Both the position numbers and the translations under genes were made by a program. DNA of 64,000 bases from Rhynchopus sp. YZ270_cl-10 (taxonomy: Eukaryota > Euglenozoa > Diplonemea > Diplonemida > Diplonemidae), in assembly GCA_964035575.1 (NCBI GenBank), contig OZ037844.1:1700501-1764500 (forward strand). The letters are read 5' to 3'. The notes beneath the pieces are model-generated. The model had not been told where the DNA came from and did not search any database. It saw only the letters and a list, made by a program, of their open reading frames with translations. Numbering within the stretch: position 1 is the stretch's first letter; every line of letters begins with the position of its first letter. Below are positions 2,125-55,930 of this stretch, in pieces.

Positions 2125-2143
2125 CAGGGTCCTAGCTCAGTAG

Positions 2144-2172
2144 AACGGAAAAGGTGGCCCACCTTTTCCGTT
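2144..2172. repeat. 29-bp perfect palindrome followed by T-runs
   Basis: Two 14-bp arms (2144-2157 and 2159-2172) around one central base, directly followed by long T tracts (about 2175-2228). It lies in the subterminal part of the hAT-like element. The other end (about 4014-4028) carries one arm only. It could be a transposase-binding or fold-back structure. It also resembles a hairpin plus T-run terminator, but nothing indicates transcription. Confidence 0.7.
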
Positions 2173-2940: not shown

Positions 2941-3215
2941 GGGGTGGGGGATAAAACAATTATCCCCCGTTTTTTCTCCCCCATTTTATTTTATTTTATC
3001 CCCCACTACAGTTATCCCCCACTTCCCACACCGCGTTTTTGGTGTGGATTTTCCTTGGGGATGGGGATATTCAGGTGGGAAAAAAGAGAGATATTTTTTT
3101 TTATCCCCCACTACAACTATCCCCCATTTTTTGAGAAGAACAAACTGGCGATATTTTTTATTTTATCCGCCATTCTACAGTTATCCCCCACTACAATTAT
3201 CCCTCCCCCCCCTTT
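2941..3215. repeat. Degenerate TATCCCCCA-rich repeat
   Basis: Many irregular copies of TATCCCCCA/TTATCCCCCACTAC spaced by AT-rich filler, inside the hAT-like element. Frames through it encode only low-complexity sequence and are not counted as genes. Confidence 0.6.
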
Positions 3216-3526
3216 ACACGGTGCAAAAAACCGGTTGGCCAAGGAGGTCCTCAGTGTCGTCAGCCAGTCCCCTTTGCTGTTAAAAACAGCGACTTGGCGT
3301 GGTCAATTTTTCCGCGCGAACAGGGATTACGCTCCACGTGTGGAACGTATGGAAATCCATACGTGAATTGTTTTTGAAAAGGTGGAATCCATACGTGTCC
3401 ATACGTAGGTAATTTGGGTTTTGGATTGGGCTGGGGTGGGGTAGGTGAGGAGTGGGGCTCCGCCCCCACCTCTCACCTACCCCCTACAGAATTCTATTTG
3501 TAGGAGACAATTTTCTATTTTACCGG

Positions 3527-3668
3527 AAAAGGAGCATGCAGCATGGCGAAAGAAAAAAGTAGCGTACCGTGCGCCTGCGGCGCTAGATTGCAATACACCC
3601 TTCCCATGACATAATAGGCAATTTTAAGCGCAATTTTTAGAAATGTTGCGTACCGTGGCTTCGCCAGA
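3527..3668 (+). repeat. Dispersed repeat, first arm of an inverted pair with 8028-8200
   Basis: About 140 bp that reappears in reverse orientation near 8028-8200. Shared landmarks are GCATGCAGCATGGCGAAAG, the hairpin GCGCCTGCGGCGC, CCCATGACATA and GCGTACCGTGGCTTCGCCAG. The last block occurs again at about 3765-3785. It lies inside the hAT-like element, so this repeat was already mobile or was carried by it. Confidence 0.6.
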
Positions 3669-4427
3669 AACTTTCGTTTTAGCAAAATATGGAAGTAAAG
3701 TTTACGGAACTGGACCATAATTACCAACGAAAGTGCCATTTTATGTCAAGATTTTTTAAAAATGTTGCGTACCGTGGCTTCGCCAGGAACATTTGGATGC
3801 CATGACTGATGATTTCTCCAGTTCTTCGAACTTTCACAACCCTTCTCAACCAACTTTGCCAGGGAGAGCGCGCGCGAAGCGCGCGCGAAGCGCGCGCGGT
3901 TTTTAATTGTTTTTTGCTTAGAATTGTACGTGTTGAAAATCCATACGTACTTTTTTTATTTTTGGGGGAGCTGCGTAATCCCTGCGCGCGAAGCGCAGAA
4001 AAATTTTTTTTGAGCCACCTTTTCCGTTTCTTTTTTTTTTCTTCTGAGCTAGAACCCTGTATCATGTTATAAACATTTCTTTGTTTTTGCACATTGCTCT
4101 CATTGTGACATGACATTGTTTTCACTATGATGGATCTTTGAAGTTTGCGGAAGATCTTTCCAGAAATTGTGAATTTGTTGGGGATTTTCACACATCTGGA
4201 CGATCATGTTATTTGTGTGGGTTTTTCTTATTCCACACACATCTTTTGAGGGGAGAAGAAAACGATCTCTTCCACAAGCTCTGATCCTTTTTGATATTAT
4301 CACTGAATAGCATTTTTCAACGCGTTTTGTGAACTCGGAACAGATTTATTTCTGTGAAAGTGTCGGGATGTGTGAGCTCGCAAATGGCACATCCTGTATC
4401 ACACAATAGACCTGTTGCGAGACACAG

Positions 4428-4480
4428 CCAACACTGACTCCTCAACTGGTAAAAGAGCCTGTCGAGAGGGTCAGTGTTGG
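4428..4480 (+). ncRNA. Conserved 11-bp-stem hairpin in the flank module
   Basis: CCAACACTGAC (4428-4438) pairs perfectly with GTCAGTGTTGG (4470-4480) around a 31-nt loop. The same hairpin stands at 9203-9255 and 15895-15947 and is missing from the truncated module after gene 4. It could be a 5'-UTR structure, a small RNA or an insulator. No Sm site or box motif was recognised. Confidence 0.35.
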
Positions 4481-4655
4481 TGCTTTCGTTTCTTCTTCCG
4501 TTGCGATGTGCGTCCGTATGGTGTCAGGCGGTCTACCTGGCCTGAAATACACATAGCTTTTTAGAAGCTGACCAGCACGGCGAGTGTGGTGCGAAACACA
4601 TTCATTTTTATTGATGTTCTTTTATTATCCAGTGCCTGCGTCCCGCCGTTGAACG

Positions 4656-4732
4656 GTGAGTCGTTTGCACTTTCAACTTTTCTTTATTGTTTCCCTCTCC
4701 CCCCGTTAAAACCGTTTCAACGTTCTTTGCAG
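4656..4732 (+). other. Probable 5'-UTR intron of gene 2
   Basis: GAACG|GTGAGT donor and a pyrimidine-rich tract ending TTCTTTGCAG|AAAAC. The same donor and acceptor are kept in the modules near 9431-9507 and 16123-16199. The 77-nt length fits the other introns of the window. No transcript data are available. Confidence 0.45.
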
Positions 4733-4871
4733 AAAACCCCGTTTGCAAAAGAAGAAGCTCAAATCCCTAAATCAACAAAATGAAATACCCCCCCCATTCG
4801 TCGTTTGTTGTGTGTTGATCGCATACGTCCAACCAATGATTTCCACAACAGTTTTCCTTAATCACCAAAAA

Positions 4872-6740
4872 ATGAGGCCAATGTGTGCGATGCTACTGGG
4901 TGCCTTCTCACTCAGCAGAGGTGCCACTGCGCAGTGTACCTCAACGCATCCGTGGTGCGATCCTTTCATGCCTGTTCTGGCACCCAGCGACGTGATAGAC
5001 CCTTGTCACGTGCTAGCCCTATCGTGCCAGGTTCGTCCGCTGGACTGGCAAGTGGAACGTATACTGGAGCAGCACAACCTGTACAGGGAAAAGCACGGAG
5101 CATGCCCCATGAAGTACAGCACAGCCATTGAACACTACGTTATGACCAGCGCCGGCTTCCAGGGCACCTGCAACACCGGCAGCCTCACGTATAACAACGG
5201 TAATGCCTATGGCGAGAACATTGCCATGGTGGCTACTTCCGATCCTACAAGGATTGCCAAATGGGATGCGGCCGAGGCTGTGAAGAACTGGTACTGTTTT
5301 GAGGAGAACTGCTACAGTTACGATGGTGCATTCTCGTCACAGATCCTGCGCTTCTCTCAGGTGGTGTGGAAGGATTCAGTCGAGGTCGGGTGTGGTCTGT
5401 GCTCTATCGACGGTACCCGCATGTACATCATGTGCAATTATCAAGTGAAAGGGAACCACGTTTCGGAGTTCGGGAGCCAGATCGGAGCACCAGGGTCAAC
5501 AGCGACAGGGTGTGCAGTGACTACATCTGTGCCAACCTCCGTTCCCACTTCAGCCCCAACAGCAATCCCGACAGCGCAGCCCACAGCAGTACCCACAACT
5601 GTTCCGACATCCATGCCCACTGCAGTGCCCACAGCTGTGCCAACCTCCGTTCCCACAGCACAACCTACTTCAATGCCAACAGCACAGCCCACAGCAATTC
5701 CTACATCAGTCCCAACAGCAACCCCGACAGCGCAGCCCACAGCTGTTCCACCATTCATGCCCACTGCAGTGCCGACAAGCGCCCCTTCTACGTGCACAGA
5801 CAAGGACACGATTAAGACAACGTGCCCACGGAGCCTGCCTGACACATGCCGCTTCAAGGTGCAGCACCAAGAGAGGGTGCTCTCTGTTGCCTTCTCGAGC
5901 GACGGCACGCACTTTGCCACTGGCAGCGACGACGGTGTGCGTGTGTTTGAGATTGCAACAGGCATGCAGACGCTGAAGCTTGCGTGTGCAGACTTTGCTG
6001 TGCACGACGTTGTGTTCTCGCCGGACGCACTGTCGGTTGCAGTTGCAGGTGCGGGTGGACGTGCTGTGGTGTGCGATGTGGCAACGGGAGCACTGCGGTA
6101 CGTCCTGCACAACCTGGGGAGCAGAAGCACGCCGATACGCAAGGTCGCGTATTCGCGTGTGGGTGGCCTGCTTGCGGGTGGGGGTGGGAACGCGCCAAGC
6201 ACACGTGTTGTGCGTGCAGACGACGGTGCCTTGGACCTTGTCATCCATGCGCATGCGCGCAACGTGGCGTTTTCGCCTGACGGAAGTCTGCTGGCAACTG
6301 TGGTGGGGAGTGAGGTGGACGAGATTGTGCAGATATGGGACGTTGCGACGGGTGCGAAGGTGGGCACTGTTGTCTCTGAGGGTGCGCGTGTGGTGTCTGT
6401 GGCGTTCCTGTCTGGCGGTGAGCTGCTGCGTGGGATGGACAGCGGTGCCGTCCTTATGACGCGTTGGGCAAGCGGGACTGTCGGTGTGGGTGTCGCGACA
6501 GTGTCAGCAGCAGTGTCGATGCCCTCTCACGTGCTGCACCACGCTACGCCCTCTGCAGACGGGCAGCTCTTTGCTGCTGCAGGCCCTGCTGAGGTCGTCG
6601 TGTGGACGGCAGCAGGCACTGTGCACACACGCCTTGCAGGCCTCGACTCAATTGTGGCTCAGGTGTCCTTCTCCCCCGACAGCAGCCTTCTTGCCACTGC
6701 CGGGCACGACGGGTCGCTCCTTGTGTGGTCTCTTGTGTGA
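4872..6740 (+). CDS. Secreted CAP/SCP-domain protein with WD40 propeller (paralog 2)
   Basis: A 622-residue protein with the same signal peptide as paralog 1, a CAP (CRISP/antigen 5/PR-1) domain at about 56-200, a Pro-Thr linker (about 218-306), and the shared seven-blade WD40 cassette. CAP landmarks are EQHNLYR (His68), GENIAM (114-119), FSQVVWKDS (161-169) and the paired Cys of CGLC and YIMCNY. In classical CAP proteins the FSQVVW block starts with His; here Arg takes that place, so the usual metal-binding cavity is probably incomplete. CAP proteins are extracellular and often bind lipids or act in defence or host contact; no substrate can be assigned. The in-frame extension upstream of Met4872 lacks the conserved start context and was excluded. 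The WD40 part matches paralog 3 almost base for base. Confidence 0.85.
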   Translation: MRPMCAMLLGAFSLSRGATAQCTSTHPWCDPFMPVLAPSDVIDPCHVLALSCQVRPLDWQVERILEQHNLYREKHGACPMKYSTAIEHYVMTSAGFQGTCNTGSLTYNNGNAYGENIAMVATSDPTRIAKWDAAEAVKNWYCFEENCYSYDGAFSSQILRFSQVVWKDSVEVGCGLCSIDGTRMYIMCNYQVKGNHVSEFGSQIGAPGSTATGCAVTTSVPTSVPTSAPTAIPTAQPTAVPTTVPTSMPTAVPTAVPTSVPTAQPTSMPTAQPTAIPTSVPTATPTAQPTAVPPFMPTAVPTSAPSTCTDKDTIKTTCPRSLPDTCRFKVQHQERVLSVAFSSDGTHFATGSDDGVRVFEIATGMQTLKLACADFAVHDVVFSPDALSVAVAGAGGRAVVCDVATGALRYVLHNLGSRSTPIRKVAYSRVGGLLAGGGGNAPSTRVVRADDGALDLVIHAHARNVAFSPDGSLLATVVGSEVDEIVQIWDVATGAKVGTVVSEGARVVSVAFLSGGELLRGMDSGAVLMTRWASGTVGVGVATVSAAVSMPSHVLHHATPSADGQLFAAAGPAEVVVWTAAGTVHTRLAGLDSIVAQVSFSPDSSLLATAGHDGSLLVWSLV

Positions 6741-8027
6741 CGATGCGTTCTGTCGTGCATAAGGCAAGAAACATCCTGCATCCTTTATTTTGTGTGAGGA
6801 ATGTGGGAAGATATACTTTTGGTGAGTTTTCTTTTTCTTTTCTCTTCAGAGTCAGCAGTGTTTCCGCGCTCCTTCATTGGGTACGATTTTTGATGAAGAA
6901 TCGTGATTTTGTACATAAAAGGTAAATACGTCCCGAGCCCGGCGCGCTACGCGCGCCGGAAGTTAACGCAAGTTCAGGGCCTCCGGCGGAGAAACTAGAG
7001 TTCTGGCCCAAAACACGCGTCCCAGCGCAGTCCCTGAGATCAAGCATGTCCTTAAATCCAAAACAAACTTACAAGAGGCCGCCCCGTACCCCCTCCAGGC
7101 AAATAAAAAGTAAAAGAATGCCCTTCCTCAGTCCGGAAGTATCGCCTCAACCGGTCACCTGCCGTAAAAGAGAGAGAGGTTACAGTAAATCCGGGAAAAA
7201 TCAGGATTTTTCTGATTTTTAAATCTCAAAATTTTCTTATAGAAAAAAAATTTTTCGCGCTGCGCGCGAAAATTTTTCACGCACAACAGGAGAAGATATT
7301 TTTTTGTTGTTGTAGGCCCGCAGTGCGGGGCGGTCACATTTTTCTCCCCACCACAGTGCCTTATCCAAGAATCAGATTTCAAGATTTTTGGGGTCAGTTT
7401 GTGTTTCCCCCAAGATGTTTTTAAGTTCTGACCAGCGAAGACATTGGAAACATAGGGAACTGTATTGTATTTTCCTTTTGCGGAGCAAAAGGAATAACAC
7501 AAAATGGCGCCGCAGGCGAAAAAATAATAGGGTACGGTGTAAAATGTAGCTTTTTACACTACAGAGTCAGTCAACAAACCCTTTTTTGCGGAGCAAAAAA
7601 GTAATAAATAATGGCGCCGCAGGCAAAAAAAATTAGGGGACAGCCTGGGATTTCACGGTGCGGTCAGTAACTCAGTTCCCCAGGGTACTCCCGTGGTTCA
7701 ACCACTGTTCTACCAGGAAATTATTCCGACCTCCCTAAAAAAGACACTGCCCCATATCCATATGAAAATTTTTTCACCGGCAAAAATAAAATTTTCTTAT
7801 AAAATTTTCTTATAGAAAATCCTGAATCCTAAATCCGATTTAGAGGACAGCATGCCTGAGATTTCCAAAAAATAAAATAAAAAAGCGCGGTCGAGCCCGA
7901 CCCGGAATGAGAGAATTCCTCGGGTATCCAACTGAGGAGTTCAACTTGATTGATATTTGCACCAGACACACGAATTCTCAGTAACCTCAGTACGTGTACA
8001 AAAAGAAACGGTGGTCATAGCATCAAG
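6741..8027. other. Intergenic DNA rich in tiny hairpins
   Basis: No gene is supported. The stretch holds many short stems with three-base loops: CTTTTGC-GGA-GCAAAAG near 7479, a second T-rich one near 7575, and CCGGCGCG/CGCGCCGG near 6939. ATGGCGCCGCAGGC occurs twice (about 7504 and 7611). Long A/T runs alternate with GC-rich stems, as in the interior of the hAT-like element. Confidence 0.55.
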
Positions 8028-8200
8028 GCTCCTGGCGAAGCCACGGTACGCAACATTTCAAAAAATTGCGCTGAAAATTGCACATTTTTACAGCCAAACT
8101 ATGTCATGGGAAGGTGGGTTGCAAACTTGCGCCGCAGGCGCACGGTACGCGACTTTTTTCCTTTCGCCATGCTGCATGTTTCCTTTTCGTTCGGCGTTTG
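8028..8200 (-). repeat. Dispersed repeat, second arm of an inverted pair with 3527-3668
   Basis: Reverse-complement relative of 3527-3668. It contains CTGGCGAAGCCACGGTACGC, TATGTCATGGGAAGG, the stem TGCGCC-GCA-GGCGCA and TTTCGCCATGCTGCATG in the expected reverse order. Divergence is moderate, with indels. No coding capacity. Confidence 0.6.
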
Positions 8201-8819
8201 ATCAATTGAGTCGCGTTCTGGCTGTGACGGGGTCACTTTGTTCATGAGGCCAGTTCTGGTCACTCTCAGAGGCTTATGTGGGGGATTTTTTTTTTTTCCG
8301 GGAATTTTTTTTATTTTTATTTTTTTCCAATGAAGAATTCTTCACTGGAAAATTTTTTTTTTTCGGGATTTTTTTTTTTTTTTCGAAGAATTCTTCATCG
8401 GATTCTTCAGCGCGGAAAGTCTGAGAGTCAGACCAGCTTACATCCAGGGACACCCTTCTTCAGCCAGGTGGAGAATGCTGCCCCAGCCCCCACCCCCTCT
8501 ACACTGTCCGCGTAGATCCCCCCATTCGTAAGGAGTCATCTGATGCCGCAAGGCAAATCGCCCCCACAGCGATGGTATTGGATGGCACGTGCGCGTTTAC
8601 GAAGCGATATTGCCCTTAGGGTCCCCCGCTATGCTCCCCACGGTACCACGTACAAAGGTATAGTAGGCCTTTCGAAAAGGCTGGGGTATAAAGAGGTCAC
8701 GCGAGTGGAACTGCTGATGTTCTCTTACGGTGCACACCACTCACGTCTCGCCCTTTGCATGAGCTCGACTGAGATGCGTTTTAGCACGTTTCAACGACTC
8801 TTTTTCTGTCGGCACGTTT
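8201..8819. other. Intergenic DNA, nothing recognised
   Basis: T-rich tracts with GAAGAATTCTTC fold-back motifs (about 8333-8400), then GC-balanced sequence without a convincing frame. From about 8790 the sequence resembles the 3' flanks of the WD40 genes (TTTCAGTTTCTTTTGTTC), marking the edge of the next duplicated flank. Confidence 0.45.
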
Positions 8820-9600
8820 ATGTTTCAGTTTCTTTTGTTCTTTTCTTTTGTTTTTTGTACATCGGTCTCATCATTACGTGACATTGTTTTCACTATGATG
8901 GATCTTTGAAGTTTGCGGAAGATCTTTCCAGAAATTGTGAATTTGTTGGGGATTTTCACACATCTGGACGATCATGTTATTTGTGTGGGGTTTTCTTACA
9001 CACACATTTTCTGTGAAGAGACAAAAAGATCTCTTCCACAAACTATGATCATATATGATTTTTATTGAATAGCATTTTTCCACGCGTTTTGTGTATTTTG
9101 TGAACTCGGAACAGGTTTATTTCTGTGAAAGTGTCGGGATGTGTCAGCTAACTCGCAAATGGCACATCCCGTATCACACAATAGACCTGTTGCGAGACAC
9201 AGCCAACACTGACTCCTCAACTGGTAAAAGAGCCTGTCGAGAGGGTCAGTGTTGGTGCTTTCGTTTCTTCTTCCGTTGCGATGTGCGTCCGTATGGTGTC
9301 AGGCGGTCTACCTGGCCTGAAATACACATAGCTTTTTAGAAGCTGACCAACACGGCGAGTGTGGTGCGAAACACATTCATTTTTATTGATGTTCTTTTAT
9401 TATCCAGTGCCTGCGTCCCGCCGTTGAACGGTGAGTCGTTTGCACTTTCAACTTTTCTTTATTGTTTCCCTCTCCCCCCGTTAAAACCGTTTCAACGTTC
9501 TTTGCAGAAAACCCCGTTTGCAAAAGAAGAAGCTCAAATCCCTAAATCAACAAAATGAAATACCCCCCCATTCGTCGTTTGTTGTTTGTTGATCGCACAT
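8820..9600 (+). promoter_or_regulatory. Orphan copy of the CAP-WD40 5'-flank module
   Basis: Matches 4067-4790 closely, including the 11-bp-stem hairpin (9203-9255) and the UTR-intron signals. Where genes 2 and 4 would begin their coding region, this copy runs into unrelated palindromic DNA at about 9605. No CAP or WD40 sequence follows, so the gene it once served was lost or displaced. Confidence 0.6.
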
Positions 9601-9629
9601 GTCAACGAAAATTTATTACCGTAATCGTA

Positions 9630-9945
9630 AGAATTCTGGGGCGTAAAATTTTTAGGACGTAAATATTCTGGGACGTAACAAAACCGGGACATTTTGGACT
9701 TTTTTAAACTTGGGACATTTTTACGTCCCAGAATATTTACGTCCCAGAATTGTCTGTGTGACCTTCCCCCCTCACCCATGCACTTCGGTGCAAACCCAAA
9801 CATGTCCAACAAACAAACAAAATATACATACTTGGGCCGGCTATGATCCCTCCACCAACCAGCCGCACCCAACCACCCACACCCCCAAAAATTGACAAGT
9901 ACCTGGAAAACCGCCCGAACAATTCTGGGACGTAACAAAACTGGG
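9630..9945. repeat. Palindromic GGGACGTAA repeat cluster
   Basis: GGACGTAAATATTCTGGGAC (from about 9655) is mirrored by its reverse complement near 9724-9745. TTCTGGGACGTAACAAAAC recurs at about 9668 and 9924. The arrangement suggests a small fold-back element, but no clean target duplication was found. Confidence 0.5.
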
Positions 9946-10119
9946 ACAATTGGGGAAAAATCTGAAACTTGATAATCCCTACAACTTAATAATTAATTGT
10001 CTCAGATCTCCCGTGGTGCGAACTGAGAACTGTTCGCACTAAGATCATGGCCCCTTTGTGCTGGCAACCCACCTCACTCCAGATAAATTATGTACCCTTT
10101 GCAACACACTCTCCACACC

Positions 10120-35000: not shown

Positions 35001-35892
35001 CCTCACAGCGATCCCCTCCAACGCCAACATGTTGGAGAGCACCACCTTTGCGGCGGTGACGCGTTTCCGGCTAGGAGTGGCCATCCATGTGCCGGACTCC
35101 GTCTGCTCTTGTTGCTCTGGTGCGGGGACGCAACTTAAGATGGACGCGTATGGGGACCACTCCTTCGCCTGTTCCCACAGGGGATGCAGAATCCGCCGGC
35201 ATGATGCCCTGAAACTTGCTCTGGGGGAGGCCGCGACAGGTGCTGGTCTAGGCCCGGTGATCGAGCAGCGTACAGGGGAACCAGGTGAGGGTGGCCAGCG
35301 ACCAGCTGACATTTACCTGCCAGGAGGCGTATCTGAGAGCGCGCCGCGGTGTTTGGATGTGACCCATGTCGCCCCGACCCTGCCCTCCTACCGCCGGCCC
35401 GCTGCGAAGTTTATTGGGTGGACGGCGAAGACTCAAGGTCAGAGGAAGAGGGAGAAGCACGAGTTGTACTGCCGGCAGCACAGGATGTCCTTTTCGCCGG
35501 TGGTGTTTGAGGCCTTTGGCGGAGCTGGGGACGAGGCGAATTTGCTGTTAGCTCAGCTGGGTGGTCTGGCAAAAGATGTGTCTTCCCGTCTGGTGGGGTC
35601 GGCTGAGACGCGTATCCGCGAGCGGGTAGCTATTCGCTATCAGAAAGAAGTCGGTGCCTCTTTCCTGCGTAGGGGGGCTTTGTGCTTGGGGATTTCGACC
35701 ATTGGTTCCCACAAGGAAAGCGGAACCCCGGAAGAGACGGACCCACAAACCCGCAAACCCGCAAACCCGCAAACCCGCAAACCCGCAAACCCGCAAACCC
35801 GCAAACCCGTAAACCCGCAAACCCGCAAACCCGCAAACCCGCAAACCCGCAAACCCGCAAACCCGCAAACCCGCAAACCCGCAAACCCGTAA
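32017..35892 (+). CDS. LINE protein: OTU-like protease, zinc fingers, reverse transcriptase, restriction-like endonuclease
   Basis: No ATG opens this part, because copy C cut it from its upstream half. A protease-like motif NDCGYLAL (Cys at 32074) with a later GSHFEYVSV (His at 32425) fits an OTU-type cysteine protease. C2H2-like fingers follow (CPFDKC ... HMRRH; CANDQC). RT motifs are RPIAVGDTLRRLVGK, LKIDYRNAFNS, GAQQGDPLGPLL and WYLDDG (Asp-Asp at 34147-34152). A C-terminal CCHC finger (from about 35104) and a PD-(D/E)xK-like pair (Asp at 35308 in RPADIY, Asp at 35356 in LDVTHV) identify a restriction-like endonuclease, as in R2/Dong/NeSL-type LINEs. The catalytic RT residues are all present. 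The last 50 residues are translated GCAAACCC repeats, ended by a TAA from a GTAAACCC variant. Confidence 0.85.
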   Translation, partial: DRVLTRYGAQRNVTSSTNDCGYLALHYWDSVAQPDVKALRKVVVDAATSVPDRMVQVLGSGLAVTEFVNGVSGTAHLNHMGLQLFATSQQKNIVVVQASEDDPLVLISPGCRFLTAAAIAKFQDTLDTVVISLCGSHFEYVSVGADNANSKESVAWKMRKAARDAVLDPAQKIGPIPTTTRTTAPLSTKLGNINAERVFCPFDKCRQGILSSFKGEGLCRKSILDHMRRHQAEDSYVSDDLLGHLGMARCANDQCDKIIPGSREWCNLCEVAFGEAGFTAPDRRDRGGLTAEDDLPTFEAIGTTRVQLKGGCPEAYLEQYSRLFLKVLLDILSHQDELAWKKFALFFTVLHRVRSDRGGEGQAKRHSRGWAKDLQLWEEGKFVTLWNDTVEGRKPPAAWTDGDTVEGKKKRAVAKARAGLPSQAMTSATSAGVAPHTKVTLEKLEAKHPSPDADPGVFDWPDTVDVPPVTPLELMKAMRSMPRSSAAGPSHVTGAHLRTLCLQRRAGSKGALGALAAVLSSLAKGEAPPEVSHFLAGANLVALRKLAKTPDQEEDVRPIAVGDTLRRLVGKILATRVRTQSRSIFLRGNQVGVAMPRGTSAAADVIAQYAERHKEDDKVILKIDYRNAFNSIDRTEMLRAVDAHLPELAPWVRWCYMSPSCLFFGEAIVRSQRGAQQGDPLGPLLFALTIHQMTLELRSVPDLDGTLWYLDDGSLRGPPEAVYKAYQILLERSVRLGLEVNESKCELVAMGGLTAQQLGQVGFVIRDDKQQGGEGFKLLSHTGFEFLGLPIGTSAYCEEYMLVKMETTRSNLRALIELDDAQVAYYILRYCEGFCRMVFYMRGVTVVATKYLGIFDEEIGKCLAALLHDAHGSLPQLARDQAALPIAMGGLGIRRTRDHWSAAALASQAGNFQLAQTLDPQYAWDALRWKHAVSDYNERVDLKYKLNTDQPTQLPVQQKLSAAIVDAQADKLMLALSTRDRARMKSLLLPMSGAYLTAIPSNANMLESTTFAAVTRFRLGVAIHVPDSVCSCCSGAGTQLKMDAYGDHSFACSHRGCRIRRHDALKLALGEAATGAGLGPVIEQRTGEPGEGGQRPADIYLPGGVSESAPRCLDVTHVAPTLPSYRRPAAKFIGWTAKTQGQRKREKHELYCRQHRMSFSPVVFEAFGGAGDEANLLLAQLGGLAKDVSSRLVGSAETRIRERVAIRYQKEVGASFLRRGALCLGISTIGSHKESGTPEETDPQTRKPANPQTRKPANPQTRKPVNPQTRKPANPQTRKPANPQTRKPANP

Positions 35893-36666
35893 ACCCGCAA
35901 ACCCGCAAACCCGCAAACCCGCAAACCCGCAAACCCGCAAACCCGCAAACCCGCAAACCCGCAAACCCGCAAACCCGCAAACCCGCAAACCCGCAAACCC
36001 GCAAACCCGCAAACCCGCAAACCCGCAAACCCGCAAACCCGCAAACCCGTAAACCCGCAAACCCGCAAACCCGCAAACCCGCAAACCCGCAAACCCGCAA
36101 ACCCGCAAACCCGCAAACCCGCAAACCCGCAAACCCGCAAACCCGCAAACCCGCAAACCCGCAAACCCGCAAACCCGCAAACCCGCAAACCCGCAAACCC
36201 GCAAACCCGCAAACCCGCAAACCCGCAAACCCGCAAACCCGCAAACCCGCAAACCCGCAAACCCGCAAACCCGCAAACCCGCAAACCCGCAAACCCGTAA
36301 ACCCGCAAACCCGCAAACCCGCAAACCCGCAAACCCGCAAACCCGCAAACCCGCAAACCCGCAAACCCGCAAACCCGCAAACCCGCAAACCCGCAAACCC
36401 GCAAACCCGCAAACCCGCAAACCCGCAAACCCGCAAACCCGCAAACCCGCAAACCCGCAAACCCGCAAACCCGCAAACCCGCAAACCCGCAAACCCGCAA
36501 ACCCGCAAACCCGCAAACCCGCAAACCCGCAAACCCGCAAACCCGCAAACCCGCAAACCCGCAAACCCGCAAACCCGCAAACCCGCAAACCCGCAAACCC
36601 GCAAACCCGCAAACCCGCAAACCCGCAAACCCGCAAACCCGCAAACCCGCAAACCCGCAAACCCGC
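35745..36666. repeat. (GCAAACCC)n array, about 115 units
   Basis: Nearly perfect 8-bp tandem repeat, with rare GTAAACCC units near 35810, 35890, 36050 and 36298. It starts exactly where the LINE protein ends and stops at CACTAGAAG. Its strand bias (C-rich top, G-rich GGGTTTGC bottom) is telomere-like. It may be the LINE's 3' tail, its insertion target, or an interstitial telomere-type satellite. Frames on both strands through it are artefacts. Confidence 0.9.
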
Positions 36667-36877
36667 ACTAGAAGAAAGCTCGCTAAAATGTAGGAGGCTG
36701 GTGTGGTTGTGAACAGAATTTTTTTTTTATTGTATGAAGGTTTTGCATTTTTACAAATGTGAAAGCCGAAAAAATTGAATAGAAAAATGAATTGAACTTG
36801 GCTCACCCCTCATTTCTCTTTTCATAGCATTTGTGTACTCACACACCAAAAACAGGTGAACTATTTCTCAAGAAACT

Positions 36878-40170: not shown

Positions 40171-40887
40171 ACCCCCGCAAACCCCCGCAAACCCGCAAAC
40201 CCGCAAACCCGCAAACCCGCAAACCCGCAAACCCGCAAACCCGCAAACCGCAAACCCGCAAACCCGCAAACCCGCAAACCCGCAAACCCGCAAACCCGCA
40301 ACCCGCAAACCCGCAAACCCGCAAACCCGCAAACCCGCAAACCCGCAAACCCGCAACCCGCAAACCCGTAAACCGCAAACCCGCAAACCCGCAAACCCGC
40401 AAACCCGTAAACCCGCAAACCGCAAACCCGCAAACCGCAAACCCGCAAACCCGCAAACCCGCAAACCCGCAAACCCGCAAACCCGCAAACCCGCAAACCC
40501 GCAAACCCGCAACCCGCAAACCCGCAAACCCGCAAACCCGCAAACCCGCAAACCCGCAACCCGCAAACCCGCAAACCCGTAAACCCGCAAACCCGCAAAC
40601 CGCAAACCCGCAAACCCGCAAACCCGCAAACCCGCAAACCCGCAAACCCGCAAACCCGCAAACCCGCAAACCCGCAAACCCGCAAACCCGCAAACCCGCA
40701 AACCCGCAAACCCGCAAACCCGCAAACCCGCAAACCCGCAAACCCGCAAACCCGCAAACCCGCAAACCCGCAAACCCGCAAACCCGCAAACCCGCAAACC
40801 CGCAAACCCGCAAACCCGCAAACCCGCAAACCCGCAAACCCGCAAACCCGCAAACCCGCAAACCCGCAAACCCGCACAAACCCGCAA
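40171..40887. repeat. Second (GCAAACCC)n array, degenerate at its left
   Basis: Same 8-mer and orientation as the array at 35745. The first 440 bp contain many one-base-shorter units (GCAACCC, GCAAACC) and some GTAAACCC; the last 270 bp are near perfect. It ends at an assembly gap, so its true length is unknown. Confidence 0.9.
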
Positions 40888-41087
40888 NNNNNNNNNNNNN
40901 NNNNNNNNNNNNNNNNNNNNNNNNNNNNNNNNNNNNNNNNNNNNNNNNNNNNNNNNNNNNNNNNNNNNNNNNNNNNNNNNNNNNNNNNNNNNNNNNNNNN
41001 NNNNNNNNNNNNNNNNNNNNNNNNNNNNNNNNNNNNNNNNNNNNNNNNNNNNNNNNNNNNNNNNNNNNNNNNNNNNNNNNNNNNNNN
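40888..41087. other. Assembly gap of 200 N
   Basis: Exactly 200 N, a common placeholder length, between the GCAAACCC array and the tandem 7-kb units. The true distance and even the linkage are unproven. Confidence 0.95.
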
Positions 41088-48590: not shown

Positions 48591-49025
48591 ATGATGGAGG
48601 CGGAGGCGGAGGCGGAGGCGGGGTCGGCTCATACGCCACCCCCCCTCCTGGGACAATCCTCAGTCCCAGCAGCAGCGAAGGAGACGGAGAAGACAACAGC
48701 GGTATGTAACTTTTACCCCTTTTTATTACTTTTTCTTCGTATGTCATTTCAACACTCCGGATTCTCGGCTCATGATGCCTCCTTACAAGAGGCGCAAACT
48801 CTGCTTAGCCGCATGGGTCCGCTCCCACCGCAGCTCCGCATCCTTCACGCGTACCGGTCAGTCATGCACGCACATCCCACACGACGTCTTTCCTTCACCT
48901 ATGTGAACGTCCACGAAGATGTTGGGTCTTCCTTGCTATCCTCCGCAGCAGCACGCTTCGCGCCTACTCCTCCGCCCGCACCATGGGAAGGGTGCCAGCA
49001 TCAGTGTCACCTAGGTCCGTCATGA
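48591..49025 (+). CDS. Frame A of the 7-kb unit (copy 2)
   Basis: The ATG opens a (GAGGCG)n stretch coding Glu-Ala repeats, then a Pro-rich segment; a single frame of 144 residues reaches the stop. A consensus donor GTATGT at 48702 suggests that only the first 37 codons are exon 1. A possible next exon starts after TTACAAG at about 48790 (RRKLCLAAWV...) and could end at ACCG|GTCAGT. That phase would fit gene B's first visible exon, making A and B one gene with the inverted array in an intron. Unspliced, A is a stand-alone small protein. No domain recognised. The exon contains the stem CTGGGAC/GTCCCAG. Confidence 0.4.
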   Translation: MMEAEAEAEAGSAHTPPPLLGQSSVPAAAKETEKTTAVCNFYPFLLLFLRMSFQHSGFSAHDASLQEAQTLLSRMGPLPPQLRILHAYRSVMHAHPTRRLSFTYVNVHEDVGSSLLSSAAARFAPTPPPAPWEGCQHQCHLGPS

Positions 49026-49285
49026 ACAGGTCCCTCTCGGGCTTGTTTTTCTATTTCAGCCTGTTCACAGGCTTAACCTTGTTAGTTCCTCATTCTCTTT
49101 GTTTTTTTTTTATTTTTTGCAAATACGAAGTGTAACCCAGGTGAGGTGTGCACTGGCTGTGCATGCAGGAGGAGGAGTAAGAGGTGCTATGGTGTGCGGA
49201 ACGCACAGGTGAGGTGTGCACTGACTGTGCATGCAGGAGGAGGAGTAAGAGGTGCTGTGGGGTGCGGAACGTAGGGTATCGTGTT

Positions 49286-51532
49286 ACGTGCGCATGTAGT
49301 GTATGGTGATACATGCGCACGCTGTGTATAGTGTACTGTGCGCACGTAGTGTATAGTGATACGTGCGCACGTGGTGCGCACGCTGTGTATAGTGTTCCGT
49401 GCGCACGTAGTGAAGAGTTTACTGTGCGCACGTGGTGCGCACGCTGTGTAGAGTGTACTGTGCGCACGCTGTGAAGAGTGTACTGTGCGCACGTGGTGCG
49501 CACGCTGTGTATAGTGTACTGTGCGCACGTAGTGTATGGTGTACTGTGCGCACGTAGTGAAGAGTGAACTGTGCGCACGCTGTGTATGGTGTACTGTGCG
49601 CACGTAGTGAAGACTGAACTGTGCGCACGCTGTGAAGAGAGTACTGTGCGCACACTGTGTATGGTGTACTATGCGCACGTAGTGAAGACTGAACTGTGCG
49701 CACGCTGTGTATAGAGTACTGTGCGCACACTGTGTATAGTTTACTGTGCGCACGCTGTGTATGGTGTACTGTGCGCACGTAGTGAAGAGTGAACTGTGCG
49801 CACGCTGTGTATAGCGTACTGTGCGCACACTGTGTATAGTTTACTGTGCGCACGCTGTGTATGGTGTACTGTGCGCACGCTGTGTATGGTGAACTGTGCG
49901 CACGTAGTGTATAGAGTACTGTGCGCACACTGTGTATAGTGTACTGTGCGCACGCTGTGTATGGTGAACTGTGCGCACGTAGTGAAGAGTGAACTGTGCG
50001 CACACTGTGTATGGTGTACTGTGCGCGCGTAATGTATAGAGTACAGTGCGCACGTGGTGCGCACGTATCACTACACTACGTGCGCACAGTACACTATACA
50101 CAGTGTGCGCACAGTTCACTCTTCACTACGTGCGCACAGTTCACCATACACTACGTGCGCACAGTTCACCATACACAGCGTGCGCACAGTTCACTCTTCA
50201 CTACGTGCGCACAGTTCACCATACACTACGTGCGCACAGTTCACCATACACAGCGTGCACACAGTTCACTCTTCACTACGTGCGCACAGTACACCATACA
50301 CTACGTGCGCACAGTTCACCATACACAGCGTGCGCACAGTTCACTCTTCACTACGTGCGCACAGTTCACCATACACAGCGTGCACACAGTTCACTCTTCA
50401 CTACGTGCGCACAGTACACCATACACTACGTGCGCACAGTTCACCATACACAGCGTGCGCACAGTTCACTCTTCACTACGTGCGCACAGTACACCATACA
50501 CTACGTGCGCACAGTTCACCATACACAGCGTGCGCACAGTACACTACACACAGTGTGCGCATAGTTCACTGTGTGCACAGTTCACTCTTCACTACGTGCG
50601 CACAGTACACCATACACTACGTGCGCACAGTTCACCGTACACAGCGTGCGCACAGTACACTACACACAGTGTGCGCACAGCTCACTCTTCACTACGTGCG
50701 CACAGTACACCATACACTACGTGCGCACAGTTCACCATACACAGCATGCGCACAGTACACATAACACAGCGTGCGCACAGTTCACTCTTCACTACGTGCG
50801 CACCACGTGCGCACGGAACACTAAACACAGCGTGCGCACCACGTGCGCACAGTACTCTATGCACGACGTGCGCACGTATCACTAAACACTACGTGCGCAC
50901 AGTAAACTCTTCACTACGTGCGCACAGAACACTATAGACAGCGTGCGCACCACGTGCGCACGTATCACTATACACTACGTGCGCACCACGTGCGCACAGT
51001 AAACTCTTCACTACGTGCGCACGGAACACTATACACAGCGTGCGCACCACGTGCGCACGTATCACTATACACTACGTGCGCACCACGTGCGCACAGTAAA
51101 CTCTTCACTACGTGCGCACGGAACACTATACACAGCGTGCGCACCACGTGCGCACGTATCATTATACACTACGTGCGCACCACGTGCGCACGTATCACTA
51201 TACACTACGTGCGCACCACGTGCGCACAGTAAACTCTTCACTACGTGCGCACAGAACACTATACACAGCGTGCGCACCACGTGCGCACGTATCACTATAC
51301 ACTACGTGCGCACCACGTGCGCACAGTAAACTCTTCACTACGTGCGCACAGAACACTATACACTACGTGCGCACCACGTGCGCACAGTAAACTCTTCACT
51401 ACGTGCGCACGGAACACTGTACACAGCGTGCGCACCACGTGCGCACGTATCACTATACACTACGTGCGCACCACGTGCGCACAGTACACTATACACTACG
51501 TGCGCACGTAGCACTCCTCACTACATGCGCAT
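49286..51532. repeat. Inverted array of 25-bp repeats, copy 2
   Basis: As copy 1, with the centre near 50045-50066. Left arm 375 bp shorter and right arm 200 bp longer than in copy 1 (15 and 8 units). Confidence 0.9.
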
Positions 51533-51663
51533 GGAAGCGTTGATATATTATTCAAGTGACAATGTTCTAATTATAGGTTATACACATTCTATTATTTGAT
51601 AAATATTACAGCAATACCATAATAATTGGTCTATACTCTATGTACTACTAAACAACATTACAG

Positions 51664-53168
51664 GTGACCCCGTCATAGCGATACGGAAGGTGTACCGCAC
51701 GCTGAACAAGAAGGTGGAATACTACGAGCAGCAAGGAGTACTGCTCCGGCTAGTAGACGGAGTGCTGGCGGATCGGTCCACCGAGCGCAACAGGAAGAAG
51801 GGGGATCCGTACGAGGTATGAATATACACTAAGTACCACATATATAATTCATACTACTTTTTACAGCGCGAGGAGTACGGACCCCAGGGGGAGCAGCCGC
51901 CGCCGAGCTGCCTGGAATTTGAGTTCCAGGCAGCACTCGACCACTCCGAGAATGGAGTGGTCGAGGAGGCGTGGCGACCCCACCTCCAGCGTAGGCTGGA
52001 GCTGGCGTGCCGACCGGCACGACAGGCGAAGAGGGAGTACGAGCTCCGTATGTCTTATTATACATTACCTATGCGTTTCCTCATATTTATATTATTCCCC
52101 CTTACTACAGCTCCCGAGGTCCGCAGCCTCGGATTTGGGACGTACGTCCCAACCGCACAGGAGGAGAAGCAGCAGAGGGAAGACGCGAAACGCGTCGTCG
52201 CGAACGGTCGGAGGATCGTCGCGACCCTCATGCTGTCGTCAGAGCTGATCATCAGCGACGACAGCAAGGTATGTGCTCAAACCTCCCACCTTCTATATTA
52301 CTATACCAAAACATCACAGATCCATTCACTGTTGACGGACACACTGAAACGCCCAGAGGACGAGGACACGCAGCGCGCGTCAGGGTCCGTGAGCGTGAGC
52401 GGACCGGGAGAGCCGCAGCCGCCCCCCGACAGCCACCCCCACGCCGGGCCGTCCGAGCTGACGTTCCCCCACGCCACCATGTCGGTTCCGTGGGCCCGTC
52501 TCCGGACGGCCCTGTGGGTGGCAGGAGGGGTGCGGGGCCTCCCCGAGCTCGAGGCTGCGGTAGAGGCGGAAAAAAACAGAGAAAAAAAAGCAAAGAAAAG
52601 GAGGGGTAAACCCCAGGACCAGTTCCAGGCGTGGTCCGAGGGAAAGGACTCCCAGTCCCAGGAGTGGGACTGGGTGTATACGGAAACGAATAGGCCGGGA
52701 AGAAAAAGAAAAAGGGAAACAGGACAACCCAGGCGCGAGAACACCACCACCTCGCCCTCCCCCTGCCTCCCACCCCAGATGTACGCACTGCCGTACGACA
52801 CCCCCCCCAGCTCCGCACAAAATAGTGAAAAAAAAAGAAGGGTAGGATGTGATATAAAAAAAACAGAAACCAAAAAGGAAAGCGAAGAAGAAACCAAAAA
52901 AGAAAAAAAAGTAGAAACAAAAAAACAGACCAAAAGAGAGAGAGAAGAAGCCGCTGCTAAAAAGCAGTGGCTTGATGCCTACCAAAAAATGGGCACGGAG
53001 GAAAAAAAGCAGTGGTGCATGGAGTGCGGCTTTAATTGCTGCGCTTCATGCACCACTCTTGTGGCATGCCATAACAGCTGCCACAAGAGAATACCCTCCA
53101 AATGGAAACAACGAAAAGAAGGGCGTGCAGTGCACGCAAGCGCCAAAATCATGCATAAAGCGAGATAA
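51664..53168 (+). CDS. Gene B of the 7-kb unit (copy 2): spliced Lys-rich protein with Cys-rich C-terminus
   Basis: Exons 51664-51815, 51867-52047, 52111-52268 and 52320-53168 keep one frame; introns of 51, 63 and 51 bp have GTATGA/GTATGT donors and TACAG/CACAG acceptors. An upstream exon must exist, because the first exon follows an acceptor (ACATTACAG) and starts in mid-codon. The visible part is 445 residues: a charged helical N-terminal region, a Pro/Ser-rich middle, a long Lys/Glu tract (KKTETKKESEEETKKEKK) and a Cys cluster of the form C-x2-C-x3-CC-x2-C-x6-C-x3-C near the end, possibly zinc-binding. The basic tracts would suit a nuclear protein. No family recognised. Its exons are crowded with perfect inverted repeats. 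Confidence 0.6.
53011..53089 (+). repeat. Two stems over the Cys-rich codons of gene B (copy 2)
   Basis: Arms 53011-53030 and 53038-53057 give a 20-bp stem with loop TTTAATT; 17 pairs are Watson-Crick and three are G-U wobbles. The next stem, 53056-53066 with 53079-53089, has 11 perfect pairs. Equivalent positions are 45671-45749 and 60126-60204. Wobble pairs preserved at this length suggest that folding of the RNA, not only DNA symmetry, matters. Confidence 0.85.
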
Positions 53169-53378
53169 GCACTATTTTTATATATTTTTGTTTTGTTTAC
53201 TAAATTTTTATTTTTCAGACATGTCCCCCTAGATCACCTCCAGCCTCCCCCCTCTCTTCCAAATAATGTTTGAGCTAAATGAAATATAAAGAACCCCTAT
53301 ACCCTCCCCTTTTTACTTTAGTTTATCATCAGATACACTTTTTAATCCTCATCACATCCCATCAGACGTACACACACA

Positions 53379-54471
53379 ATGAGGGTGAAGATGGCGCGGA
53401 GACGGCCGGTCCCAGCCCCACCCCCAATGGCGGCGATTCAGGCCCCAGCCCCAGCCCCAAAGGCGGCGACGAGAAGGAAGAGGAAGCGCAAGCGGGCGGC
53501 GACAGTGTCCTCCGCGTCCGCCGGGGGGTCGTCGGTGGGGAATATGTCCTCATTCTCCCCCGGCGCCCCCGGCGCCCCCGACGCCCCCACCTCCGTCATG
53601 CCGCGGAGCCCCACCACCACCACCAACACTGCCTCAGGTATGTATTCCCTCATACATTATTACATCGTTTTTAATTAAGTACGTAGTTATTAATCCCCCA
53701 TCACAGAGACCGCCACCAGACAACGCCTGTCAGTGGTGAAGGTGCAGGCGAAGGCGCGGCTAGAAGCCGCCATGCAGGCAACGGAGGAGCCACCGAGGGT
53801 ATGTTATATAATTCTCCCCTATATTAGCTCCCCCTTTATCCCAAGAATTACAACACTATACAGGAGAGTATGTCCCTCAGATTCGAAGTTGAGGCTACGG
53901 TAAGCTCAGAAGAAGAACCCGAGTGGAAAGAAAAAGTATGTATTTTAATTGTATTGTACCTATTTTTGTCATGCTATTTTATTTTTCTCAGAAACAGGCG
54001 ATCCTGGCCAGGACACGCCAAATCCAGCATAAAATGCTGGAGGCGTACGCCGGGAAGGAGGACACGGACACGGACTGGAGAGAGTCCGTGTCGTCGCAGG
54101 GAGCCGGCAGCGACGAGGAGTACGAGGAAAAGGGGGGAGAGGGGGGGAGGGGCAAAGAGGTGGAGGTGGCATCGGGGAGGTGGGTGAGTGTAAGGGTGGG
54201 GGTTAGGGGGGAGGGGGTTAAGGGGGAGGGGGTTAAGGGGGAGGGGTATGGGGTCGCAACCGACGGTTGCGTCCCATACGAGGTGGGAACGGGGGAGGTG
54301 CCAAACGCAGACCAACTTAAAATGTTGGCTACTGCGGGCATCGCCCCCGGGGACGAGGGACTAGTCCCGCTCCCCCACAAGCACGACACCAGACAGACAT
54401 GTCTGGTGCTCGTGACGAGAACAGAGGGGGGGGGGGTCTCTGTTACCCCCCCCTCCAAAAAAGGCAGCTGA
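53379..54471 (+). CDS. Gene C of the 7-kb unit (copy 2): spliced basic protein
   Basis: Exons 53379-53637, 53707-53798, 53864-53935 and 53992-54471; donors GTATGT, acceptors CACAG, TACAG and CTCAG; phases agree and give 300 residues. The N-terminus is basic and Ala/Pro-rich with a strong nuclear-localisation-like cluster (TRRKRKRKR, about 32-40). The middle is helical and charged; the C-terminal third is Gly/Val-rich (GVKGEG repeated) and ends SKKGS. No domain recognised. A GTGAGT donor at 54184 offers an alternative splice that could join frame D. The stop codon lies inside a perfect 10-bp stem. A TATA-less, pyrimidine-rich region precedes the ATG, which follows CACACACA. Confidence 0.6.
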
Positions 54472-55273
54472 CACCCCAGTCAGCTGCCCCCAGAGGCTCC
54501 TAACGACTAGGAGCCTCTGGTGCCACAACCACCTTACGCGTGTGCGTGGTGGCACAGGGGGCAGAACGCAGCGCGTCCTCGCTAACGAGGAGAACGACAG
54601 GAGACGCGCCTACGCTAATGCGTGGGAAAGACGCCACAACGCAGAACAGGGCAGCGCCCTTGCTTTTGTGCCTCCAGTAGCGGCTAAAGCTACTCTGGTC
54701 ATCGCTGCGTTCCTGGAAACGGAGGTGGCTGTCACCATCTACTCTACGAGTAGCGATGGTGACAGCATCCTGACTGCAGTCAGGATGCTACCACACCCCA
54801 GCCTCGCGCAAGTGAGGTCGAACGGCGCTCTGCGCCGTTCCTTGTTCAACGAGCCCCTGTGGCTGAGTACAGGCACACCTGACGTGTGCTTTATTCGGCT
54901 GAAGGCTGCTCTGAACAAGAAAAAACACGGGGAGTGGGTGGACTTCGCAAGGAGACAAACAAAAGCGCAGGCTCGACTGGAGGAAGAGGGAATCAAGCTG
55001 ATCGTGATGCTTTATCATGTTGGAATCATAATAATCCATCACGAGCAGATTGATGGCCTCTCCACCTTCAAACGAGCCACGGAGTACCACGCCACTGCTC
55101 AACAGGACAGCCTGTCGTACTCGAAGACGGGGCTAGTGATCCTCCTTGACGAGGGGGATCACTACTCCAGAATCAAGAACAAAAGCGACGCTGACCGCGT
55201 CGCGTTCGCAAACTGGTATCAAACGTCCATGTCAGGTAGAGTAACGGTTCATCAGAACTTGGCTAGACCTTAA
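54416..55273 (+). CDS. Frame D of the 7-kb unit (copy 2): ATG-less frame overlapping the end of C
   Basis: Open for 285 codons from inside the 3' end of gene C, one base ahead of C's frame. The first in-frame ATG is far inside (54785), so it is probably reached by splicing from C (donor GTGAGT at 54184) or by recoding near C's stop. The product has an Arg-rich N-terminal part (ENDRRRAYANAWERRHN), hydrophobic strands (TLVIAAFLETEVAVTIYS; LIVMLYHVGIIIIHH) and an acidic turn (LLDEGDHYSR). The mixed alpha/beta look suggests a folded, perhaps enzymatic, domain, but I recognise no family. The DNA underneath is the most hairpin-dense part of the unit. Confidence 0.45.
   Translation, partial: REQRGGGSLLPPPPKKAADTPVSCPQRLLTTRSLWCHNHLTRVRGGTGGRTQRVLANEENDRRRAYANAWERRHNAEQGSALAFVPPVAAKATLVIAAFLETEVAVTIYSTSSDGDSILTAVRMLPHPSLAQVRSNGALRRSLFNEPLWLSTGTPDVCFIRLKAALNKKKHGEWVDFARRQTKAQARLEEEGIKLIVMLYHVGIIIIHHEQIDGLSTFKRATEYHATAQQDSLSYSKTGLVILLDEGDHYSRIKNKSDADRVAFANWYQTSMSGRVTVHQNLARP
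54463..54840 (+). repeat. Consecutive hairpins at the C/D junction (copy 2)
   Basis: Successive stems with almost no spacer: 54463-54472/54479-54488 (10 bp), 54490-54502/54508-54520 (13 bp), a bulged stem 54519-54552, CCTCG/CGAGG and GCGCGT/ACGCGC near 54570-54610, 54729-54739/54755-54765 (11 bp, with an inner 5-bp stem), a perfect 26-bp palindrome 54764-54789, and 54820-54828/54832-54840 (9 bp, 3-base loop). The same blocks lie 7,340 bp upstream in copy 1 and 7,115 bp downstream in copy 3. More stems follow in frame D, for example GCGACGC/GCGTCGC near 55187-55205. Confidence 0.9.
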
Positions 55274-55930
55274 GGCCACTAGTATTTCTTATAGTGACCT
55301 TCAGGTGTAATCAAAATTCTCATGAACGTGTACTACACGTGACATGCCTTAGTAATACCAGTTGTAGAATTCAATATTTCCTCCTTTATCTATTGTTAAT
55401 GTGATTTAGCAGGGAAAGCATTTTCCCTCATAAGTATTTTCCTTTTACAAAGACATTTTTCAGCGAAAGAATACATTTTGTTAAATATTTACAGCATTTT
55501 CTGTACAGTAGAATGCATATTTTATGTGTCGTGTAGACTTCTTCGAGATCAGCCGTTTTCCGTAACTCACGCGTCCTTTGCGTGCAATTAGATCACTTCT
55601 TACGGAAAACGTCATTTCTCTTGAGTAATAAAAAATATTTTGGGCCCAGCACAGACTGGCCCAAGAAGGCAAGGAACGAACTGTAAAAACTAACGAAATA
55701 TAGAGAAAGAAAGGCCATATGGGGGGGTTCCACATAGATATCGAAAGCAAATAACGCAAGAAGGGAAAAAAGACAGTATAAATAACAGAACGAAAAAAAA
55801 GAGGTCTACCTCACCTGCACCCCATTTCTATTTAATCTGCTTTCATATCCCACCTCCACCACTCTCCTCACCACAGATTACACAATACAATGACTTGCCT
55901 AACTCCCTAAAAAAAATAAAAGCAAGTAAA
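55274..55930. other. Structured non-coding tail of the unit (copy 2)
   Basis: No gene. It holds AAGG-CACTA/TAGTG-CCTT, ACGTGTA-C-TACACGT, GGGAAA/TTTCCC, an 11-bp stem GTTTTCCGTAA/TTACGGAAAAC enclosing CACGC/GCGTG (about 55555-55612), and TTGGGCC/GGCCCAA. The last 130 bp before frame A are pyrimidine-rich and probably promoter or 5'-UTR. Copies: 47934-48590 and 62389-63045. Confidence 0.65.

Follow-up and report, generated by a model that had tools for sequence, protein, structure and literature searches.

Organization of the repeated unit

We analysed a window of 64,000 nucleotides from the diplonemid Rhynchopus sp. YZ270_cl-10 (assembly GCA_964035575.1, contig OZ037844.1), in which a tandemly repeated unit of about 7 kb carries coding exons filled with short, mostly perfect hairpins. 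The window is C12:1700501-1764500 of an assembly of 152.4 Mb in 126 scaffolds, the C12 scaffold measuring 1.79 Mb; labels from C8 to C102 denote scaffolds of this source assembly, and positions without such a label are those of the window. The features of the unit and its surroundings are listed below.

48591..55930, plus strand: tandem unit of 7340 bp; the next units measure 7115, 7600 and 7600 bp
48591, 55931, 63046, 70646 and 78246 (extended coordinates), plus strand: unit starts found by the copy search
48591..49013, plus strand: putative exon A1 (donor GTCCGT assumed), open frame, no hairpin excess
49138..51531, plus strand: array of a 25-bp satellite based on the palindromic GTGCGCAC, within the presumed first intron of gene A
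51664..51815, plus strand: exon A2, open frame
51867..52047, plus strand: exon A3, dense in hairpins (stems 51907-51934, 51936-51965, 51984-52001, 52006-52021)
52111..52268, plus strand: exon A4, dense in hairpins with nested stems (52114-52132, 52135-52152, 52182-52196, 52197-52225, 52231-52266)
52320..53168, plus strand: exon A5, Lys/Arg-rich with a Cys-rich C terminus; hairpins fewer yet significant (stems 52651-52674, 53056-53089, 53123-53137)
53379..53935, plus strand: exons B1-B3 (53379-53637, 53707-53798, 53864-53935), spliced frame open, no hairpin excess
53992..54471, plus strand: exon B4, dense in hairpins; its end follows a G run that differs in length in one unit copy
54416..55276, plus strand: open frame T, 285 codons and a stop, dense in hairpins; overlaps the end of B4 in a different frame
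54463-54488, 54490-54520, 54728-54766, 54764-54789, 54820-54840, 55134-55164 and 55185-55203, plus strand: listed stems of frame T
55277..55930, plus strand: A+T-rich non-coding end of the unit; 55543-55641 is one copy of a hairpin repeat of ~95 bp that is dispersed
40888..41087, no strand: 200-N scaffold gap that directly precedes the first unit of the right-hand series

Gene A comprises the putative A1, an intron holding the 2.4-kb satellite array, and exons A2-A5 separated by introns of 51, 63 and 51 nt. Gene B has four exons and introns of 69, 65 and 56 nt, and yields 300 codons after splicing. All six short introns lie between open exons, with GTATG donors and AG acceptors. The stretch which the original prediction had taken for a non-coding tail is open over 285 codons (54416-55273) and hence looks mostly coding; this frame, T, exceeds the longest frame of 300 shuffles (268 codons). 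Similarly, A5 reaches 282 codons compared with at most 228 in 300 shuffles, while B4 alone, at 159 codons, just equals the maximum of its shuffles (159). In A2-A4, A5, B and T, G+C was lowest at second and highest at third codon positions (GC2 and GC3), a coding-like composition that is less evident in A1; G+C content reached 56-61% in parts of the unit. In a diverged fragment on C51, B-like and T-like residues share one frame around the stretch where the unit has its G run, so that T may be a former C-terminal part of B.

The units follow one another head to tail close to the scaffold end of C12, with spacings of 7340, 7115, 7600 and 7600 bp, in agreement with the tandem arrangement described originally. 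The 4399-bp non-array part occurs in seven copies, five at the right end of C12 and two at the left end in opposite orientation. Six of the seven are identical, and one left-end copy carries two 1-base insertions, at ~52800 and at ~54425; the latter sits in the G run and shifts the reading frame. The left end of C12 terminates at a unit edge, and the two series may be one array that was split by scaffolding. We considered assembly error: it is doubtful whether the array belongs where it stands on C12, because of the 200-N gap and because the protein database carries the unit's proteins on a 584,333-bp contig and the window's cyclase on a 2,712,987-bp contig, which suggests that the array contig was possibly misplaced. 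The unit itself occurs in these seven copies, and C52 holds two partial ones.

Searched against 5.8 billion proteins, protein A (536 amino acids) and frame T retrieved the proteins of the window itself and no others; scoring covered the 8000 candidates with the most shared words for A and 2577 candidates for T. Pfam gave nothing convincing for A, B or T; T, A5 and B4 had no match in PHROG or NCBIfam, and T had none in PDB. Among viral contigs, searched with T alone, no relative of T was found. Rfam covariance models at the gathering score gave 0 matches in the window. A replication or capsid protein was not found in the unit with Pfam, PHROG, NCBIfam and the viral contigs, searches which divergent proteins would escape. 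The unit's proteins appear to be lineage-specific, without known relatives in the searches made.

Hairpin abundance against shuffled controls

The excess of hairpins in the unit was confirmed as real, with more stems than expected by chance under every control. In 51532-55930, we counted 27 inverted repeats (arm at least 7, loop at most 12) compared with 2.43 ± 1.63 and a maximum of 7 in 30 dinucleotide shuffles; the counts were 21 versus 1.20 for arms of at least 8 and loops of at most 20, and 12 versus 0.07 for arms of at least 10 and loops of at most 30. In 3411 nt of coding sequence, 14 stems (arm at least 9, loop at most 16) were observed while 300 synonymous-codon shuffles gave 1.16 ± 0.97 (maximum 4), and 10 stems (arm at least 10, loop at most 30) were observed while these shuffles gave 0.60 (maximum 3). 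Thus, in the comparison by which the original prediction proposed to be judged, neither dinucleotide nor synonymous controls reached the density of the unit.

Counted by exon against synonymous-codon shuffles (arm at least 9, loop at most 16), there were 4 stems versus 0.63 in A2-A4, 2 versus 0.19 in A5, 3 versus 0.20 in B4 and 5 versus 0.10 in T, and no excess in A1 (0 versus 0.02) or B1-B3 (0 versus 0.05). The claim that hairpins run almost end to end through the unit therefore needs narrowing: they fill A2-A5, B4 and T, but not A1 or B1-B3. The single stems that had been named are largely as described, with 12 bp and a loop of 6 at 51936-51947/51954-51965, 13 bp and a loop of 5 at 54490-54502/54508-54520, and a 26-bp palindrome at 54764-54789. 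The stem near 52651 is present as well, but with 10 bp rather than 9 and a loop of 4 (52651-52660/52665-52674). Stems of up to 20 bp were not recovered, perfect stems outside the array reaching at most 13 bp even when loops up to 60 were allowed. RNA folding was extreme in the dense parts, with z = -9.45 for 51867-52268 (100 shuffles) and z = -12.8 for 54250-54890 (20 shuffles).

The WD40 and cyclase genes of the window are unlike the unit, as had been stated: the control genes WD40, cyclase, CAP/WD40 and RT had 0, 0, 1 and 0 stems at arm at least 9, which is no excess over 100 shuffles each. Six 4-kb stretches elsewhere in the genome had 0, 0, 2, 2, 1 and 2 stems (arm at least 8, loop at most 20), ~0.3 per kb in a count that excluded arms made of only one or two letter types, compared with 4.8 per kb in the unit counted without such a drop. 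At arm at least 10, total stems regardless of coding content amounted to 1.4 per kb in a 10-kb stretch of C90 (14 stems), 0.8 in C12:20001-30000 and 0.6 in C52:40001-50000, compared with 2.7 in the unit, and window positions 1-10000 held 26 inverted repeats versus ~7.6 in shuffles. Hairpins as such are therefore not confined to the unit; their density within exons is its outstanding feature.

Position of stems relative to exons and splice junctions

We then placed all stems of 51532-55930 with arm at least 6 and loop at most 16 on the exons as drawn in our analysis, counting frame T as an exon. Fifty of the 54 stems were wholly exonic (3048 nt), four were non-coding (1351 nt; 6.1 in shuffles) and none crossed a boundary. 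At arm at least 9, 17 stems were exonic and none was non-coding (P=0.002). Non-coding parts showed no hairpin excess at arm at least 6 (4 versus 6.1 in shuffles) or at least 9 (0 versus 0.03); at arm at least 7 and loop at most 12 they held 3 stems versus 1.4 in shuffles. The restriction of stems to exons is firm.

Joining the exons brought further stems to light. The longest stems spanning the six splice junctions measured 7, 7, 4, none, 6 and none (none meaning less than 4 bp), so that three of six junctions carry a stem of 6-7 bp formed only after splicing (P=0.010 against random exon joins). At each of the 12 exon-intron boundaries the longest stem had at most 5 bp, and the contrast of 3/6 with 0/12 for stems of at least 6 bp gave a Fisher p=0.025. 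However, summed stem length gave P=0.10 against random joins, duplex energies across the six junctions were all unremarkable (P from 0.11 to 0.98), single-junction shuffles gave P=0.03, 0.04, 0.90, 1.00, 0.12 and 1.00, and the spliced A2-A3 junction folded alone reached z of only -1.4. Because summed length, duplex energies and the single-junction fold are weak, we regard the bridging of splice junctions as suggestive.

Pairing quality, strand symmetry and the link to the protein

Among 55 perfect stems (arm at least 6, loop at most 20), four extended past one mismatch into at least three more pairs, compared with 0.34 in shuffles. At 9 bp or longer there were 17 pure Watson-Crick stems (0.2 in shuffles). 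Allowing G-U raised the number to 27 (5.2 in shuffles, a gain of 5.0), and allowing A-C raised it to 32, where shuffles gained 12.9. At 12 bp or longer the unit had 4 pure stems, 8 with G-U and 6 with A-C allowed, compared with 0, 0.35 and 0.9 in shuffles. G-U stems exceeded shuffles more than A-C stems did at arm at least 9, 10 and 12, but not at 8. The stems are thus chiefly perfect Watson-Crick stems with a modest G-U excess. In a count of fixed windows with 0-3 mismatches, windows with one mismatch outnumbered those of shuffles; this count was set aside because it includes offset windows of perfect stems.

The two strands folded alike: mean z was -3.66 on the plus and -3.30 on the minus strand (23 windows, Wilcoxon p=0.26). 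In A2-A4 at arm at least 6, 11 stems were observed, of which synonymous shuffles kept 4.7 and codon-order shuffles 2.2, indicating that amino acids and palindromes are tied. Codon phase 1 was found in 2 of 22 stems of at least 7 bp (P=0.13 against codon-order shuffles), stems too short for the published trend. As codon-order shuffles gave similar fractions, codon phase supports neither side, and we dropped it as evidence for copying. Inspected by eye, the listed stems share no sequence.

Diverged copies within the genome

The unit was searched at the DNA level against the genome with 51660-53170, 48591-49137, 53168-54100, 54000-55300, 54470-55280 and 55276-55930, searches that distant relatives of gene A may have escaped. 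We identified diverged fragments on C51 (234 bp), C59 (187 bp), C90 (133 bp), C79 (92 bp) and C9 (83 bp), and further places of 70-80 bp on C83 and C23 that match the lysine-rich part of A5. The C59 fragment (within C59:108301-109300) is 77% like exon A1 and matches 48817-49002; the sequence ahead of it reads like the first helices of a voltage-gated ion channel. The aligned fragments C51, C59 and C90 showed no third-position excess of differences. In A2 of the C12 units, 12 in-frame bases at 51776-51787, which form a 5-bp hairpin, are absent from two C52 copies.

Compensatory changes, for which homologs had been proposed as a source, could be followed in the 234-bp C51 relic alone, where one compensatory pair stands against 12 broken and 10 A-C pairs; 44 of the 68 comparable pairs were unchanged and one was changed on one side, with a further 7 pairs on gaps and 17 outside the aligned part. 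Changes affected 24 of 149 paired and 25 of 82 unpaired sites (Fisher p=0.012), and over the shared stretch the fold z was -3.8 in the relic and -10.9 in the unit. Because the relic keeps pairs, its paired sites are less changed and it still folds at this z, the structure probably predates the split of the C51 relic and the unit. It is weaker in the relic, which shows no coding constraint and is probably a dead copy. In the living unit, something seems to keep the stems, either selection or conversion. The 10 A-C versus one one-sided G-T changes hint at a strand bias of ambiguous polarity, which we did not use as evidence.

Satellites and dispersed repeats

The satellite array of the unit reverses orientation once near 50056 and so forms a single giant inverted repeat (aligned over 816 bp, 81%); the single reversal was seen for the unit's own array. 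The GTGCGCAC-based satellite gave 339 pattern matches, and among the first 100 of them it lies near the ends of at least C8, C12 and C52. Two further stretches with this satellite were located by pattern match.

C8:16189-18108: GTGCGCAC-based satellite
C52:10878-36304: GTGCGCAC-based satellite

Between satellite arrays at C52:25015-27290, perfect inverted repeats of 10-20 bp were present. An 8-bp satellite, ACCCGCAA / TTTGCGGG, occurred in nine of the ten 3-kb scaffold-end stretches counted and in the window at 35741-36667 and 40174-40887, and directly adjoins truncated satellite arrays on C12 and C52. The ~95-bp hairpin repeat at 55543-55641 has a 12-bp stem (55554-55611) with a loop of 34. 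Besides the seven unit copies it has 10 diverged matches, and two more match the neighbouring stretch. In the two other copies compared, its stem pairs swap together, with CCGTCAC/GTGACGG on C102, CCTTCAC/GTGAAGG in the C12 interior and CCGTAA/TTACGG in the unit.

Origin of the palindromes

We tentatively favour, at somewhat less than even confidence, an origin of the palindromes by hairpin-templated copying that acted on intron-less exon sequence. Template switching while a fragile repeat region is replicated or repaired would make palindromes and keep them perfect; it would act while the exon sequence lacked introns, either before intron gain or through a complementary DNA (cDNA) step. The unit's lineage-specific proteins would tolerate the resulting changes, and unequal exchange would later homogenise the tandem copies. 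We favour copying because few stems are interrupted, both strands fold equally, amino acids are tied to the palindromes, a 12-bp hairpin indel separates the copies and the satellite reverses. Perfect pairing and strand symmetry together fit copying slightly better than selection on RNA, whereas the exon restriction argues the opposite. Several results weigh against copying. Exon-only stems and stems spanning splice junctions disfavour a DNA process blind to genes, and favour either a transcript or an intron-less past; since stems at three of six junctions exist only after splicing, copying needs the pre-intron or cDNA stage as an added assumption. A+T-rich non-coding DNA might itself depress hairpin formation, yet coding B1-B3 lack hairpins too. 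The G-U-tolerant stems at the longer arm lengths and the fewer changes at paired sites of the C51 relic are what a constraint on stems would give, codon phase brings no help, and the 12-bp indel, of ambiguous polarity, may be a hairpin deletion.

Selection on the mature messenger RNA (mRNA), by which spliced A and B/T transcripts must fold compactly for protection, packaging, translation control or escape from silencing, is a serious possibility, although we would not expect it to be the answer. The exon-confined stems, their absence across exon-intron limits, the junction stems, the modest G-U excess, the lower change at paired sites of C51 and the extreme fold energies all point towards it. 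Yet the junction signal is weak by summed length, duplex energy, single-junction shuffles and the A2-A3 fold, the plus strand is not preferred, and exons A1 and B1-B3 are unstructured. The C51 relic, with one compensatory and one one-sided pair versus 22 broken or A-C pairs, also speaks against mRNA selection, but this tally weighs little because the relic is probably dead. The guarded weights that we give to copying and to mRNA selection reflect the G-U excess, the conservation of paired sites and the failed phase control. It is distinctly unlikely, in our estimate, that the palindromes arose in the spliced message, by fold-back copying in RNA or cDNA whose product returned to the array by gene conversion. 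We consider it unlikely, too, though somewhat less so, that the open frames are chance products rather than genes, in what would be a non-coding satellite rich in palindromes. For this speak the lack of homologues found for protein A and frame T, the aligned relics without third-position excess, and B4 alone being no longer than a shuffled frame; A5 and T outrun their shuffles, however, codon-position composition is coding-like except in A1, six short GTATG...AG introns separate open exons, and the relics may be mere dead copies. Less probable still is a single-stranded DNA or virus-like replication stage that selects hairpins, with the tandem array as the concatemer of a mobile element. Such a stage would suit the near-identical head-to-tail units, the palindromic array in each of them and the symmetric strand signal, but no replication protein, known domain or viral-contig relative of T was found, the genes bear introns, and non-coding parts have no hairpin excess at arm at least 6. 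Chance or composition is a negligible explanation: G+C-rich codons and simple repeats could yield hairpins where G+C reaches 56-61%, but dinucleotide, codon-order and synonymous-codon shuffles all fall short of the counts, so that we rejected chance as the cause, and codon usage and G+C content with it. Of the causes named in the original prediction, template copying is thus leaned to by stem quality and a role of the transcript by exon restriction, while packaging, double-stranded RNA processing and a virus-like stage are unsupported because no known domain and no viral-contig relative of T emerged.

Known systems and meaning

RNA viruses carry genome-scale ordered RNA structure, with coding RNA folded over long stretches, and the coding sequence of the unit is likewise folded over long stretches; unlike in these viruses, no RNA-virus hallmark was found in the unit, and many stems are pure Watson-Crick. 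Rickettsia palindromic elements place palindromes within genes, where the unit's palindromes also sit. According to a remark in PMC6649704, however, those elements are mobile families whose arm identity is lost over time, whereas no common sequence was seen by eye among the unit's stems. The nearest precedent that we found, and the best documented one, is in the mitochondrial genes of Nematomorpha (Mikhailov et al. 2019, PMC6649704), which contain perfect coding inverted repeats above codon-shuffled controls, as does the unit. The claim that no known family has such an architecture was therefore too strong, although we would not class the unit as a member. The hairworm repeats, mostly without imperfect ones, reach 284 bp, the long ones favour codon phase 1, and conversion by template switch is discussed by the authors, although the origin of these palindromes stands unexplained. 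Unlike these repeats of tens to hundreds of bp in mitochondria, the unit has arms of 6-13 bp, lies on a nuclear-type scaffold, bears introns, is tandem and encodes proteins without known relatives. Template switching has been documented as creating and perfecting hairpins (PMC8794818), yeast coding genes included (PMC8604942). One such event would give a perfect stem and alter several adjacent residues, a likeness to the unit; in those studies, by contrast, events are inferred singly from ancestral sequences, whereas the unit packs dozens of stems into two genes. No nuclear precedent was found among the papers listed by literature searches on nuclear coding palindromes, which comprised organelle cases, unrelated work and a hairworm follow-up (PMC10380579), and one may exist in print.

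An intron-bearing, tandem and apparently nuclear case is suited to separating the causes, since a DNA process should ignore introns and an RNA-level cause should not. The unit's stems keep to exons and yet are mostly perfectly paired, as copying would leave them. If the palindromes were written at the spliced-message level, exon-only, junction-bridging and mostly perfect stems would all be accounted for, and a nuclear unit would evolve through its own folded mRNA. How coding palindromes arise bears also on the origin of hairpin RNAs.

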